From NCBI RefSeq assembly GCF_900156285.1, contig NZ_FTNC01000006.1:62001-126000 (forward strand): a DNA stretch of 64,000 bases, in the 5' to 3' direction. Both the position numbers and the translations under genes were made by a program. The notes below the pieces were generated by a model, which worked only from the letters and a program-made list of their open reading frames with translations, did no database searches and had not been told where the DNA came from. Below are positions 31,883 through 60,757 of the stretch, piece after piece (positions within the stretch are counted from its first letter, which is position 1; the number at the start of each line of letters is the position of its first letter). The DNA is from Halanaerobium kushneri (GTDB lineage: Bacteria > Bacillota > Halanaerobiia > Halanaerobiales > Halanaerobiaceae).

Positions 31883-32665
31883 TTATCTCTTCAGCTGATT
31901 GGCTGTCTGCAGCATCTCATCCGAAGCCTGAATAGCTTTTGAGTTAGTCTCATATGCTCTCTGAGCTGCAATCATATTTACCATTTCTTCTACTACTTTA
32001 ACATTTGACATTTCTAAAAAGCCCTGAGTTACTGTACCAAAACCAGCTTCTCCAGGAACTCCCTGCATAGCCTGCCCGGAAGCAACTGTCTGTAAATAAA
32101 GATTCCTTCCTTCACTGGAAAGACCGGCTGGATTGGCAAAACGATATAACTGAATTTGACCCAGTTGTTGATTTTCACCATTCACTTTGGCATTTACTGT
32201 ACCATCGGAAGTTATTGATATTTCTGTCGCTTCCTGTGGAATCTGAAATCCAGGATCTATCTGATAACCATCCGAAGTAACTATATTACCATTACTGTCC
32301 TGTTTAAAGGAACCATCTCTGGTATAAGCATAATTCCCATCTGGCAGCTGTATTCTAAAGAAGCCATCTCCTTCAATAACCATATCCAGGGGACTATCAG
32401 TATTTTGAATATTTCCCTGAGTAAATATTTTCTGGGTACTGTTAACTTTAGATCCATGACCAACCTCAATCCCGGTCGGAATTTCTGCTCCCTGAGCATT
32501 TGGTGTCCCGGATTCTCTCATATTTGTATAAATTAAATCCGCAAAATTAATTTTAGATTTTTTAAATCCACTTGTATTTACATTGGCCAGGTTATTAGAA
32601 ATAACATCGATATTAGTCTGCTGTGAATTCATTCCTGTTGCTGATGTCCATAAAGCACTAATCAT
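31883..32665 (-). CDS. flgG: Flagellar distal rod protein FlgG
   Basis: 260 residues from ATG 32665 (GAGGTG upstream; a GTG three codons earlier lies in the ribosome site). N-terminal rod signature ISALWTSATGMNSQQTNID followed by NNLANVNTSGFKKSK; central DMVIEGDGFFRIQLPDGNYAYTRDG; C-terminal VVEEMVNMIAAQRAYETNSKAI and SDEMLQTANQLKR. FlgG forms the distal rod. It follows flgF after a 126-base gap holding a structured RNA element. Confidence 0.97.
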   Translation of the reverse strand: MISALWTSATGMNSQQTNIDVISNNLANVNTSGFKKSKINFADLIYTNMRESGTPNAQGAEIPTGIEVGHGSKVNSTQKIFTQGNIQNTDSPLDMVIEGDGFFRIQLPDGNYAYTRDGSFKQDSNGNIVTSDGYQIDPGFQIPQEATEISITSDGTVNAKVNGENQQLGQIQLYRFANPAGLSSEGRNLYLQTVASGQAMQGVPGEAGFGTVTQGFLEMSNVKVVEEMVNMIAAQRAYETNSKAIQASDEMLQTANQLKR

Positions 32666-32716
32666 ATTTTCCACCTCATTTATTTTTTTGGAAGTGGACA
32701 GACTGAAATAAATTTA

Positions 32717-32782
32717 ATTGAAAACTGCTGTCTCTTTCAGTCAACAGCAGTAAGAGCTTCCTTTTCAGGTCCGGCTCTCAAT
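32717..32782 (-). ncRNA. Three-way-junction RNA element, copy 2 (upstream of flgG)
   Basis: RNA sense is the minus strand. P1 AUUGA/UCAAU (32778-32782 with 32717-32721). P2 GAGCCGGACCU-GAAA-AGGAAGCUC-type hairpin (32754-32777). P3 ACUGCUGU/ACAGCAGU (32724-32731 with 32744-32751). P2 is nearly identical to the element before flgE, whereas P1 and P3 differ but still pair. The P3 loop GACUGAAA is complementary to UUUCAGUC at 32701-32708. Confidence 0.65.
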
Positions 32783-49117: not shown

Positions 49118-49330
49118 TTAAGATCTCTCCCCTGTTCTAGAAATTCCAGCCATTATTTTCTGGCGATAAGTTACTACTTTTTTAATTATATCATCTGCTG
49201 AATCTTTGACAAGCAATTTCTTGCCATTGGTAAGAGTAATTACCGTATCTGGAGTCTCCTGTACTTCTTCTATCAGATCAGCATTTAATACAAATTCTTT
49301 TCCACTGGTTCTGGTCAATTTAATCATCAT
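49118..49330 (-). CDS. flbD: FlbD-like small flagellar protein
   Basis: 70 residues. The Firmicute FlbD/YlzI family: IKLTRTSGKEFVLNADLIEEVQ followed by PDTVITLTNGKKLLVKDS and a helical C-terminus. These short proteins sit between flgE and motA or fliL in many clusters; their function is unknown (swarming-related in some Bacillus). They are unrelated to the Caulobacter FlbD activator. Two adjacent ATG codons are possible starts. Confidence 0.9.
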   Translation of the reverse strand: MMIKLTRTSGKEFVLNADLIEEVQETPDTVITLTNGKKLLVKDSADDIIKKVVTYRQKIMAGISRTGERS

Positions 49331-49408: not shown

Positions 49409-51052
49409 TTATCTTTTTAAATTAACTAATTCCTGCAGCATTTCATCTGAGGTTGTAATCAATTTGGAACTTGCCTGAAAACCTCTCTGAGCTGTAATCA
49501 TATTTGTAAACTCCTGAGAAAGGTTGGCATTTGACATTTCAAGTGTTGCTGGAGCCAGAGAACCAAAACCACCCTGAGCCGCAGCACCTAATTCCGGATC
49601 ACCGGAGTTACTTGTAGTCTGGAAAACTCCTTCCTGCCGCATCAATCCAGCCGGGTTAGAAAAGTTTGCTAATCCTAACTTAGCCAGAGTTTGTGTTAAA
49701 CCATTACTATAAGAACCAACAACATCTCCTGTTTCTGTAAAGGAGAACGATTCTAATGCACCATCTTCATAACCATTAACATTGGTAAAATTAGCAGTCA
49801 TAGATCCATCAAACTGAGTTACTGCACTAAAATCGAGTTCAACAGTTTGTTCCATATCAGGACCAGCAGGGGTAAAAGTTAATTCAACAGTTTCTCCACC
49901 ATCAATATTACCATTTGCATCAAAGGTTATTGTATGGTCTCCACCCAAACTGGCAGTACCAGTAATACCATCTACAGAAAAATCTTCGTCACTATCACTT
50001 ATCTGCCATTCATTATTAGCTGTTTTTTCAAGTGGAAGCACTACAGTATGTTTGCCGCCCTGACTATCAAAAACATCAACAGCAATGTTTCTTTTAGCTG
50101 TTTGTTCGAAGGCAAGATCAACATTTGCATCATTCACTCCTGTTGAGTTAGTAAAAATATTATTTACATCAGTTGATGATAGAGACAAAGTTTCATCGGG
50201 GTTAGTTCCGCTTGGGTCAACAATAGTTGTTACCAAAGGATTTGTCAACAAATCAACTTCAGTTGCTAATCCTTCATTTGTTTCAAAAGAAGTAATATTG
50301 CCATTATTATCTAATTTAATTTTACCTTTTAAAGTATCATCAAAAGTTTCTCCATTTGAACTAAATTCAGTTGATGAGTTACTCGCATTCAAAGTAAAAT
50401 CCCAAACATTAAATTCTTCTGTTTCTTGTAGACTAAATGATAATTCTTCTCCATAACCAGATGCAGTTGATAATTCTAAATTCTGTTCTAAAATTTCTAG
50501 ACTATTCATTGCTCCAGCATCAAGATTTTTCCCATACTTTACTTTGTCAGTCTCTTGAGCATTAATTTCCTGTTTTAATGTAATGTCATCAATATTTTGA
50601 GCATTAAAATCTCCATAGTCTCCATTGGCATCTGCCATCCAGCCCTGAACCAGCATTCCAGTACTGGATGAATATAACCTTCCGTTTTCATCGAAGTTTA
50701 AGTTTCCTGCTCTGGAATAAACCTGATTGTTGCCATCTCGTAAAACAAAGAATCCATCTCCCTGAATTGCAACATCAGAAGTCTTCCCTGTTGACTGCAG
50801 GTTACCGGAAGACATATCACTATCTATACTTCCAACTCCCACACCAAGTCCAACCTGCTGTGGATTGGTACCGGCCCGGTTAGCCTGTGGTGCAGAAGCA
50901 CCCTGAATTGTCTGACTTAACATTTCTTTAAAAGTGACACGGCTGCTTTTAAAACCAATAGTATTTACATTGGAAATATTGTTACCTGTCACGTCCATCA
51001 TCTGCTGATGTGCATTTAAACCTGACACACCGGCATACATCGATCTTAACAT
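49409..51052 (-). CDS. flgE: Flagellar hook protein FlgE
   Basis: 547 residues. N-terminal rod/hook signature MLRSMYAGVSGLNAHQQM and NISNVNTIGFKSSRVTF; DVAIQGDGFFVLRDGNNQVYSRAG; a long variable Ser/Thr/Asn/Asp-rich central part (about 150-440) that forms the hook outer domains; C-terminal LEMSNANLSQEFTNMITAQRGFQASSKLI and SDEMLQELVNLKR. Low in Lys and Arg in the central part, which fits a halophile-type acidic surface. It carries a structured leader and a 3' hairpin, so its expression may be set apart within the cluster. Good GGAGGA ribosome site. Confidence 0.97.
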   Translation of the reverse strand: MLRSMYAGVSGLNAHQQMMDVTGNNISNVNTIGFKSSRVTFKEMLSQTIQGASAPQANRAGTNPQQVGLGVGVGSIDSDMSSGNLQSTGKTSDVAIQGDGFFVLRDGNNQVYSRAGNLNFDENGRLYSSSTGMLVQGWMADANGDYGDFNAQNIDDITLKQEINAQETDKVKYGKNLDAGAMNSLEILEQNLELSTASGYGEELSFSLQETEEFNVWDFTLNASNSSTEFSSNGETFDDTLKGKIKLDNNGNITSFETNEGLATEVDLLTNPLVTTIVDPSGTNPDETLSLSSTDVNNIFTNSTGVNDANVDLAFEQTAKRNIAVDVFDSQGGKHTVVLPLEKTANNEWQISDSDEDFSVDGITGTASLGGDHTITFDANGNIDGGETVELTFTPAGPDMEQTVELDFSAVTQFDGSMTANFTNVNGYEDGALESFSFTETGDVVGSYSNGLTQTLAKLGLANFSNPAGLMRQEGVFQTTSNSGDPELGAAAQGGFGSLAPATLEMSNANLSQEFTNMITAQRGFQASSKLITTSDEMLQELVNLKR

Positions 51053-51076
51053 ATAATTTTTCCTCCTTCAGTATTT

Positions 51077-51142
51077 ATCGGAGTCCTGCTGTTATCGACA
51101 GCAGGACAGAGCTTCCTGAAAAAGGTCCAGCTCATATCCGAT
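51077..51142 (-). ncRNA. Three-way-junction RNA element, copy 1 (flgE leader)
   Basis: RNA sense is the minus strand. P1 AUCGGA/UCCGAU (51137-51142 with 51077-51082). P2 GAGCUGGACCU...AGGAAGCUC hairpin (51109-51133). P3 GUCCUGCUGU/ACAGCAGGAC (51083-51107, 5-base loop). It ends about 10 bases ahead of the flgE ribosome site. The same architecture with a matching P2 but different, still paired, P1 and P3 occurs before flgG. Confidence 0.7.
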
Positions 51143-51215
51143 TTTAAGCTAGTTTTATTATTTTTAGCTTAAATTAAATCAATTAACTTTCCTAATCTCA
51201 AATATTATTTCACTT

Positions 51216-51611
51216 TTATTTCATAAAAACTGCACTATCTATATTTGTAAAGACATTATCATCCATACTTTCCTCATCAACTGCAGTAACTACAGTATTA
51301 TTTTCCACACTCACAATATAAGCCACATTATTAACCATCACTAGAGAATCCCTTGCTCCTTTATCGCGAGCCTTTTCTACTCCATTATTAAGCTTATCAA
51401 TTTCAGCTTTAGTAACTGGAATAGCACGGGAATTAATTCTTTTCTGTGCATGTTTCGAAAAAGAAAGTTTTTCTTTTCCTTTCATCTTTTCTCCCAGAAC
51501 ATCTTTAAAAGAAGGAGAATTGGTATTTTTCTTTTTCTGAGCAGTCTTATTTTGCTGCTGTGTTTTAGGTAGAGGTCGTATTGGTTGATTGATCTGTAGT
51601 CGATTATCCAT
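51216..51611 (-). CDS. Flagellar operon protein (TIGR02530-like)
   Basis: 131 residues from ATG 51611 (GAGGTG upstream; GTG three codons earlier rejected). N-terminal Gln/Lys/Pro-rich segment, then the conserved block SFKDVLGEKM, LSFSKHAQKRINSR, AEIDKLNNGVEKARDKGARDSL and VNNVAYIVSVENNTVVTAVD. This family lies between flgD and flgE in many Firmicute and spirochaete clusters. Its function is not known; a role in hook assembly is suggested by position. Confidence 0.88.
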   Translation of the reverse strand: MDNRLQINQPIRPLPKTQQQNKTAQKKKNTNSPSFKDVLGEKMKGKEKLSFSKHAQKRINSRAIPVTKAEIDKLNNGVEKARDKGARDSLVMVNNVAYIVSVENNTVVTAVDEESMDDNVFTNIDSAVFMK

Positions 51612-51631
51612 TATTAACACCTCTTTTAGCT

Positions 51632-60229: not shown

Positions 60230-60616
60230 TTATTTACCTCCCTGCTGGATAACCTGGTTTAAGGTGGAAAAATGTCCGGCAGCTCTATTTGACATTACAT
60301 TATAATAAATACTATTTTTTGCCAGTTCTGCCATCTCAACCTCAACATCCACACTATTTTCGTCATTTCTACTATTCCTATTATTCTGACCGCTGCGAAC
60401 AGAAGTATATTGTTTACTAAAAGCTATATGGTTACTCTGAGTAGTTTTCAGACTAATAGAATTAGAAGAATTTATTTCCTTTTTCAAGGCAGTTTTAAAA
60501 TCAATATCCTGTCTTTTGTAGCCCGGGGTGCTCACATTTGCCAGATTATTAGCAATTAATTCACCTCTCCGAGCAGAACCATTAAGTGCTCTGGTTATAA
60601 TTTCTAAATTGTCCAT
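60230..60616 (-). CDS. flgB: Flagellar rod protein FlgB
   Basis: 128 residues. First gene of the flagellar cluster. MDNLEIITRALNGSARRGELIANNLANVSTPGYKRQDID shows the rod-protein N-terminus; the C-terminus has VEVEMAELAKNSIYYNVMSNRAAGHFSTLNQVI. An AAAGGGG ribosome site lies 11 bases ahead. The c-di-GMP-I riboswitch and terminator directly upstream govern its transcription. Confidence 0.97.
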   Translation of the reverse strand: MDNLEIITRALNGSARRGELIANNLANVSTPGYKRQDIDFKTALKKEINSSNSISLKTTQSNHIAFSKQYTSVRSGQNNRNSRNDENSVDVEVEMAELAKNSIYYNVMSNRAAGHFSTLNQVIQQGGK

Positions 60617-60667: not shown

Positions 60668-60675
60668 TTGAATGT

Positions 60676-60757
60676 GCAGTCTGGCAATCATAATACAAAA
60701 TATCTTAGACCCATAACTTTGCGTCATTAGCTTTCGCTAATTTTGCTAATATTTTAA
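60676..60757 (-). promoter_or_regulatory. Cyclic-di-GMP-I (GEMM-I) riboswitch aptamer
   Basis: RNA sense is the minus strand. It has the conserved GEMM-I order: GCAAA, hairpin AUUAGC-GAAA-GCUAAU with the GAAA tetraloop, the invariant GACGCAAAG, then AUGGGUCUAAG and AUGAUUGCCAGACUGC forming the second helix and closing stem. The tetraloop and its receptor-side helix are both present. The layout matches the C. difficile Cd1 element upstream of flgB. Ligand-dependent termination is inferred from the adjacent terminator. The AT-rich 60758-60849 stretch has no promoter I can call with confidence. Confidence 0.92.

Follow-up and report, generated by a model that had tools for sequence, protein, structure and literature searches.

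The leader of the hook gene flgE in Halanaerobium kushneri raises the question of whether it carries a functional structured RNA and, if so, what would act on it. In the window, that is, the whole stretch of 64,000 nucleotides that was analyzed, flgE (P0001, 547 aa; 49409..51052, minus strand) is assigned to the hook protein by a family model. The element occupies 51077..51142 on the minus strand (reading 51142 -> 51077), in the leader between the TIGR02530 gene and flgE. A sequence-only reading of this DNA had proposed that the leader folds as a three-way junction, that a twin precedes flgG, and that the two represent a functional RNA family.

The flgE leader and its twin before flgG

The flgE element consists, on the minus strand, of P1 (51142-51137/51082-51077; AUCGGA/UCCGAU), P2 (51133-51109; GAGC UGGA CCU UUUUC AGG AA GCUC), and P3, a perfect 10-bp stem (51107-51098/51092-51083). 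Folding of the 66-mer gave -30.4 kcal/mol (z -4.5), with none of 200 shuffles equally good, and all three helices formed. The proposed three-way junction thus held for the 66-mer but not for the longer leader, whose most stable fold pairs the P2 strand CCUUUUUCAG (51125-51116) with the Shine-Dalgarno (SD) region CUGAAGGAGG (51062..51071, minus strand) in an alternative helix that sequesters the SD. This fold was calculated at -37.9 kcal/mol, compared to -31.4 kcal/mol for the forced P1-P2-P3 arrangement, and single-strand folding paired the SD to the P2 strand with a probability of 0.97. Reading the element as an intrinsic terminator was ruled out from the sequence, given that P3 lacks a U-run. 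An A/U-rich hairpin, AAGCUA...UAGCUU (51146-51170, minus strand), lies immediately upstream of P1, and the flgE leaders of Halanaerobium relatives have hairpins there (AAGCUGAA...UUCAGCUU and AAGCUUAA...UUGAGCUU) with apparent compensatory changes. Judging from the predicted fold, the hairpin may compete with P2.

The twin was indeed found ahead of flgG, within the outer limits given earlier (32782-32717, minus strand). Its core (32724..32778, minus strand; 62.6 bits with the covariance model R2 described below) lies between flgF (P0003; 32792..33544, minus strand) and flgG, the gene of the distal rod protein (P0002; 31883..32674, minus strand, likely ATG start at 32665), and comprises P2 (32778-32753) and P3 (32750-32744/32731-32725, loop UGACUGAAAGAG). 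The pairing of P1 that had been claimed for this copy fared less well: P1 was absent from the minimum-energy fold of the flgG 66-mer and is weak across flgG copies (P 0.03). In the flgG SD region (32670..32698, minus strand), UCCACUUCC (32698-32690) pairs with GAGGUGGA (32677-32670), such that a separate local helix hides the SD; its paired probability was 1.0, none of which was to P2. Family models assigned flgF as well as flgE and flgG, and both copies precede axial (hook/rod) genes.

A conserved RNA family and its distribution

We built one covariance model, R1, from 12 flgG leaders with P1 left out (the window flgG element is 1 of these 12 seed sequences), and a second, R2, from 100 sequences. 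R1, although made only from flgG leaders, still detected the window flgE element (38.7 bits), and R2 found its core at 51134..51085 (41.4 bits). R2 recovered 248 copies from the analyzed loci. The P2 hairpin has the form GCYGGACCU-loop-AGGAAGC with an internal loop YGGA/AA; a covarying outer stem is followed by a nearly invariant GC / YGGA / CC..loop..GG / AA (or AG) / GC. P3 is a covarying stem closed by the loop nGACYGANAGAn. Selection by pattern biases set A10 toward these motif letters; the model-selected set A9 is affected less.

The pairing of these stems was maintained through sequence change. Among the 12 flgG leaders, 11 of 15 core pairs had changes on both sides, with a covariation score of 0.476 against 0.192 in shuffled alignments. 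A set of 73 other sequences (A11) had both-side changes at 14/15 pairs and scored 0.643 against 0.211 when shuffled and at most 0.164 in slid controls; most of these sequences were not used for R2, but their alignment was fitted to the model, so that it leans towards R2. The flgE and flgG leaders are copies of one conserved RNA family, and the earlier proposal of a functional RNA family before axial genes is strongly supported, with a range that reaches well past Halanaerobiales.

The arms differ in how widely they are kept. In the flgE copies of Halanaerobiia, P1 is solid (native duplexes -7.34 kcal/mol, swapped ones -3.35, 0/3000) and closes the three-way junction with pairs such as AUCGGA/UCCGAU, AACUGG/CCAGUU, CCCCGG/CCGGG, and others, whereas flgE copies outside this class have a mild tendency to form it (-2.58 vs -1.74, 0/2000). 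The window flgG copy carries the P3-loop motif GACYGANAGA (GACUGAAAGA), which is lost in Halanaerobiaceae flgE copies; that of the window has CGAUA as its P3 loop while keeping the P2 and P3 stems. This loss is why P2 had looked like the shared arm to the sequence-only reading.

Almost every genome of the genus matched a loose P2 pattern, often twice with about 18 kb between the two matches, which correspond to the flgE and flgG leaders. R1 found the element in 29/29 good genomes of the order (E<=1); for the class the count was 41/47 good genomes, and for genomes spread over the window's phylum it was 168/398. With the covariance models, the element is found in Geobacter-type bacteria and in most flagellated genomes sampled from this phylum. 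When 84,980 species genomes were scanned with an exact pattern, 102 loci were returned; of the first 80 of these, nearly all lay directly before flgE-type genes, in taxa including Bacillus, Cytobacillus, Brevibacillus, Paenibacillus, Lachnospiraceae, Ruminococcus, and Geobacter. We rejected weak 45-nt R1 matches inside open reading frames (L217-L222), matches in two genomes with no flg gene downstream (G194 and G546), and an archaeal pattern match inside a tRNA-synthetase-like open reading frame (L168), which R2 did not recover. In one Geobacter genome, two flgE paralogues are each preceded by a separate RNA copy, the two copies lying 1.3 kb from each other (L163: 4986-5039 and 6326-6380), and another contig has a third match (L248).

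Association with TIGR02530

Confident copies occupy two positions, TIGR02530-[RNA]-flgE and flgF-[RNA]-flgG. In the analyzed loci, a TIGR02530 open reading frame was directly upstream of 171/177 FlgE-type matches, and the remaining six were mostly locus-end cuts or second copies. The distance from the end of the element to the start codon has a median of 30 nt for flgE and 42.5 nt for flgG, which places the element beside the ribosome footprint. In the window, the upstream gene (P0004, 134 aa; 51216..51620, minus strand) passes the NCBIfam cut-off of TIGR02530 (flg_new, PF12611) with 110.8 vs 83.2 bits; its product is the putative partner of the RNA.

The RNA and TIGR02530 occur together across genomes, although these counts ignore phylogeny and the genomes are not independent. 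In the Geobacter-type phylum, 247 genomes were searched: the RNA (E<1e-5) was detected in 10/10 with TIGR02530 over its cut-off and in 0/237 others. TIGR02530 was present in 166 of the 168 R1-positive genomes among the 398 from the window's phylum, and the two others (G094 and G194) had weak RNA matches. Of 50 TIGR02530-positive genomes without an R1 match, R2 then detected the RNA in 47 and had no match in the other three, bringing the total to 213/216 of the TIGR02530-positive genomes tested. An R2 search of 30 TIGR02530-negative genomes gave three weak matches, none of them credible, the best of which (G194) was not before a flg gene. Flagella alone do not explain this link, given that FlgE/F/G were present in 39/80 TIGR02530-negative genomes. 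The only exception seen was an 84% complete flagellated genome (G321) with no TIGR02530 match and an RNA match in a flg locus (L365). Inheritance of TIGR02530-RNA-flgE as one block may account for part of the co-occurrence; the flgG copies, which lie elsewhere and often on another contig, follow the same rule except in G321. That the RNA is confined to flgE and flgG and accompanies TIGR02530 argues for a protein partner over a metabolite ligand. Its occurrence almost exclusively together with this neighboring protein gene suggests a dedicated system for controlling hook and rod synthesis. TIGR02530 had no match in 14 control genomes, including E. coli, or in B. subtilis 168. FlbD/SwrD was rejected as the partner, since in the Geobacter-type phylum it was present in only 6/10 RNA-bearing genomes and also in 12 that lack the RNA. 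In the window, a 70-aa protein of this family lies directly after flgE (49118-49330, minus strand; 101 bits), and its start, MIKLTR..GKEFVLN, resembles by eye that of CsrA, MLVLTR..GESIVIG.

The open-access literature yielded no paper that treats TIGR02530 as a flagellar protein or addresses its function, and we found no solved structure related to it by sequence. The AlphaFold model had a pLDDT of 83 (89.5 for the C-terminal domain alone, pTM 0.81) and a helix-helix-beta4 fold, with a four-stranded sheet after the two helices. In two structure comparisons, the top rows were almost all RelE, ParE, HigB, YoeB, YafQ, and colicin-E5-type domains, with moderate Z scores of 4.5-6.1 (below 8; best 6.1 and 5.9), and chains of RelE, HigB, YoeB, and ParE superposed with an rmsd of about 3 A over 65-75 residues. 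Foldseek alone was not significant (best E 0.13). Independently of these comparisons, Pfam DUF4258 was touched by 79/124 family members (best E 0.0016), T4 RegB (RegB_T4) was matched by 2/124, and H57 and R61 are invariant in the family and R65 nearly so. Given the moderate Z of about 6 and the Foldseek result, a RelE/DUF4258 ribonuclease-like fold is a likely assignment for the protein.

Proposed control of hook and rod synthesis

The ribosome-binding sites bear on how such a protein could act. In element-bearing leaders, GGAGG was followed by UC in 59/155 cases, compared to 7/458 for other open reading frames of the same loci, in which GGAGG mostly continues with UG (Fisher p 6e-32, a value that ignores phylogeny). 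P2 contains GACCUC, the complement of GGAGGUC, and from sequence this unusual complementarity of many flgE ribosome-binding sites suggests a sequestration switch. Pairing of the SD to the P2 strand was dominant in 35/170 flgE leaders (~21%), including that of the window, and in ~4% of flgG leaders by single-strand folding, so it was rejected as the universal mechanism. Native and swapped SD/P2 duplexes differed slightly (-7.64 vs -7.38). Folding thus accounts for only part of the unusual GGAGGUC before element-bearing flgE genes of many Bacillota, and this stretch may also belong to a protein recognition site.

We consider it fairly probable that the leaders are cis-regulatory RNAs bound by the TIGR02530 protein and that the hook and distal-rod genes are thereby controlled at translation. 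The RelE-fold-like protein, encoded directly upstream of [RNA]-flgE, would recognize the internal loop YGGA/AA of P2 and the P3 loop GACYGANAGA, and binding would adjust how the FlgE mRNA, and in genomes with a second copy also the FlgG mRNA, is translated or locally cleaved. In complementary leaders, binding would act as an activator of translation: the bound protein would stabilize P2, keep its strand GGACCU off the SD, and leave the SD free. Leaders that do not have this complementarity would need another mode, in which the bound protein could act by its position beside the ribosome-binding site or by RegB-like cleavage. The sign is therefore uncertain, with activation modestly favored in our judgement. 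We put forward more tentatively, as somewhat short of probable, that a RelE-fold protein related to the mRNA interferases of toxin systems and phages has come to regulate, or as a nuclease to process, one dedicated RNA element in a sequence-specific way, and that the pair constitutes a checkpoint across phyla that sets hook and distal-rod synthesis while the flagellum is assembled.

A rather unlikely alternative is that TIGR02530 is a RelE/RegB-like site-specific endoribonuclease that cuts the element, for instance within the P2 internal loop, where GGA is unpaired, and thereby separates the flgE (or flgG) mRNA from the operon or inactivates its ribosome-binding site. The RelE/YoeB-like predicted fold with its conserved H57, R61, and R65 and the unpaired GGA beside a helix would suit such an enzyme, as would the precedent of T4 RegB, a structural relative of RelE/YoeB that cuts within GGAG/U of ribosome-binding regions and can act alone if GGA is unpaired and the next base is constrained (PMC3014915). 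However, cleavage and the match of catalytic residues are putative, and RegB_T4 was matched by only those two family members. We judged it clearly unlikely that the element is a pure RNA device that has no dedicated trans-acting factor, in which ribosomes finishing TIGR02530 or flgF unfold P2, or in which a 5' stabilizer raises FlgE/FlgG yield within the operon. This reading is consistent with a TIGR02530 stop codon that touches the element (median gap 0 nt) and with the need for more copies of hook and rod proteins than of most operon products, but it explains neither the invariant loop sequences nor the absence of the RNA from flagellated TIGR02530-negative genomes, and in the window the stop codon lies 73 nt from the flgE element.

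The two remaining explanations replace the partner. A metabolite riboswitch governing flgE and flgG is very unlikely: conserved internal and hairpin loops could make a pocket, and a c-di-GMP-I riboswitch already lies upstream within the window, but the element is small and bipartite, has no Rfam riboswitch match, and occurs in confident copies only at flgE/flgG across phyla, tracking one protein gene. CsrA usually binds GGA in a hairpin loop. We give hardly any chance to CsrA binding the element through the two GGA motifs of P2, as in the hag/CsrA/FliW system; flagellin translation is repressed by CsrA in several bacteria (PMC4894983), but the GGAs here sit in the internal loop and stem, they do not account for the conservation of the P2 internal loop or of GACYGANAGA in the P3 loop, and the RNA tracks TIGR02530.

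The proposed binding of the leaders by the TIGR02530 protein has counterparts in known systems. The hag leader with CsrA-FliW is likewise a post-transcriptional control of an abundant axial protein (flagellin) through a GGA-bearing leader, whereas the new element is a larger conserved RNA that serves hook and rod genes and is associated with TIGR02530. As in ribosomal-protein-type mRNA leaders, a small conserved leader lies beside the gene of its putative binder; here, exported flagellar subunits would be controlled, and the putative binder resembles a RelE toxin fold. TIGR02530 probably shares its predicted fold with the mRNA interferases T4 RegB, RelE, and YoeB but is a flagellar-operon gene, and any ribonuclease activity is putative. 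In Salmonella, FlgE is reportedly controlled post-transcriptionally by assembly stage (Bonifield 2000, cited in PMC4032328), which would parallel the proposed regulation of hook protein synthesis after transcription. Given that TIGR02530 had no match in the control genomes, E. coli included, the device would be separate from that of Salmonella.

The element appears to be new as a family. No Rfam 15 family matched either window element at its gathering score or at E<=5 or E<=2, and nothing in Rfam fitted the elements of 13 relatives' loci at E<=2. Two other candidate structured RNAs take their names from flg genes, Termite-flg (RF01729), for which termite hindgut is the only listed source, and flg-Rhizobiales (RF01736), which is listed solely for Rhizobiales (PMC2864571), but neither model scored in any element locus, and the earlier suggestion of a relation to Termite-flg found no support at any of these thresholds. 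The open-access literature yielded neither a description of a flgE-leader RNA of this kind nor any conserved RNA element that serves hook or rod genes. The kind of device, a protein-binding mRNA leader, is familiar, and the family, its regulon, and the proposed RelE-like binder appear new. The element spans a large share of flagellated Bacillota and Geobacter-type bacteria while having no Rfam model, and it provides a first lead to the function of TIGR02530. The matching of hook and rod synthesis to assembly becomes a two-component question in culturable bacteria such as Cytobacillus and Brevibacillus.

The c-di-GMP-I riboswitch (RF01051) was matched only at 60757..60672 (minus strand; 71.7 bits) and not at the elements. 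It lies about 55 nt before the ATG of the open reading frame 60616..60230, among upstream genes of the same direction, and the flagellar region may thus combine the new element with a c-di-GMP switch.
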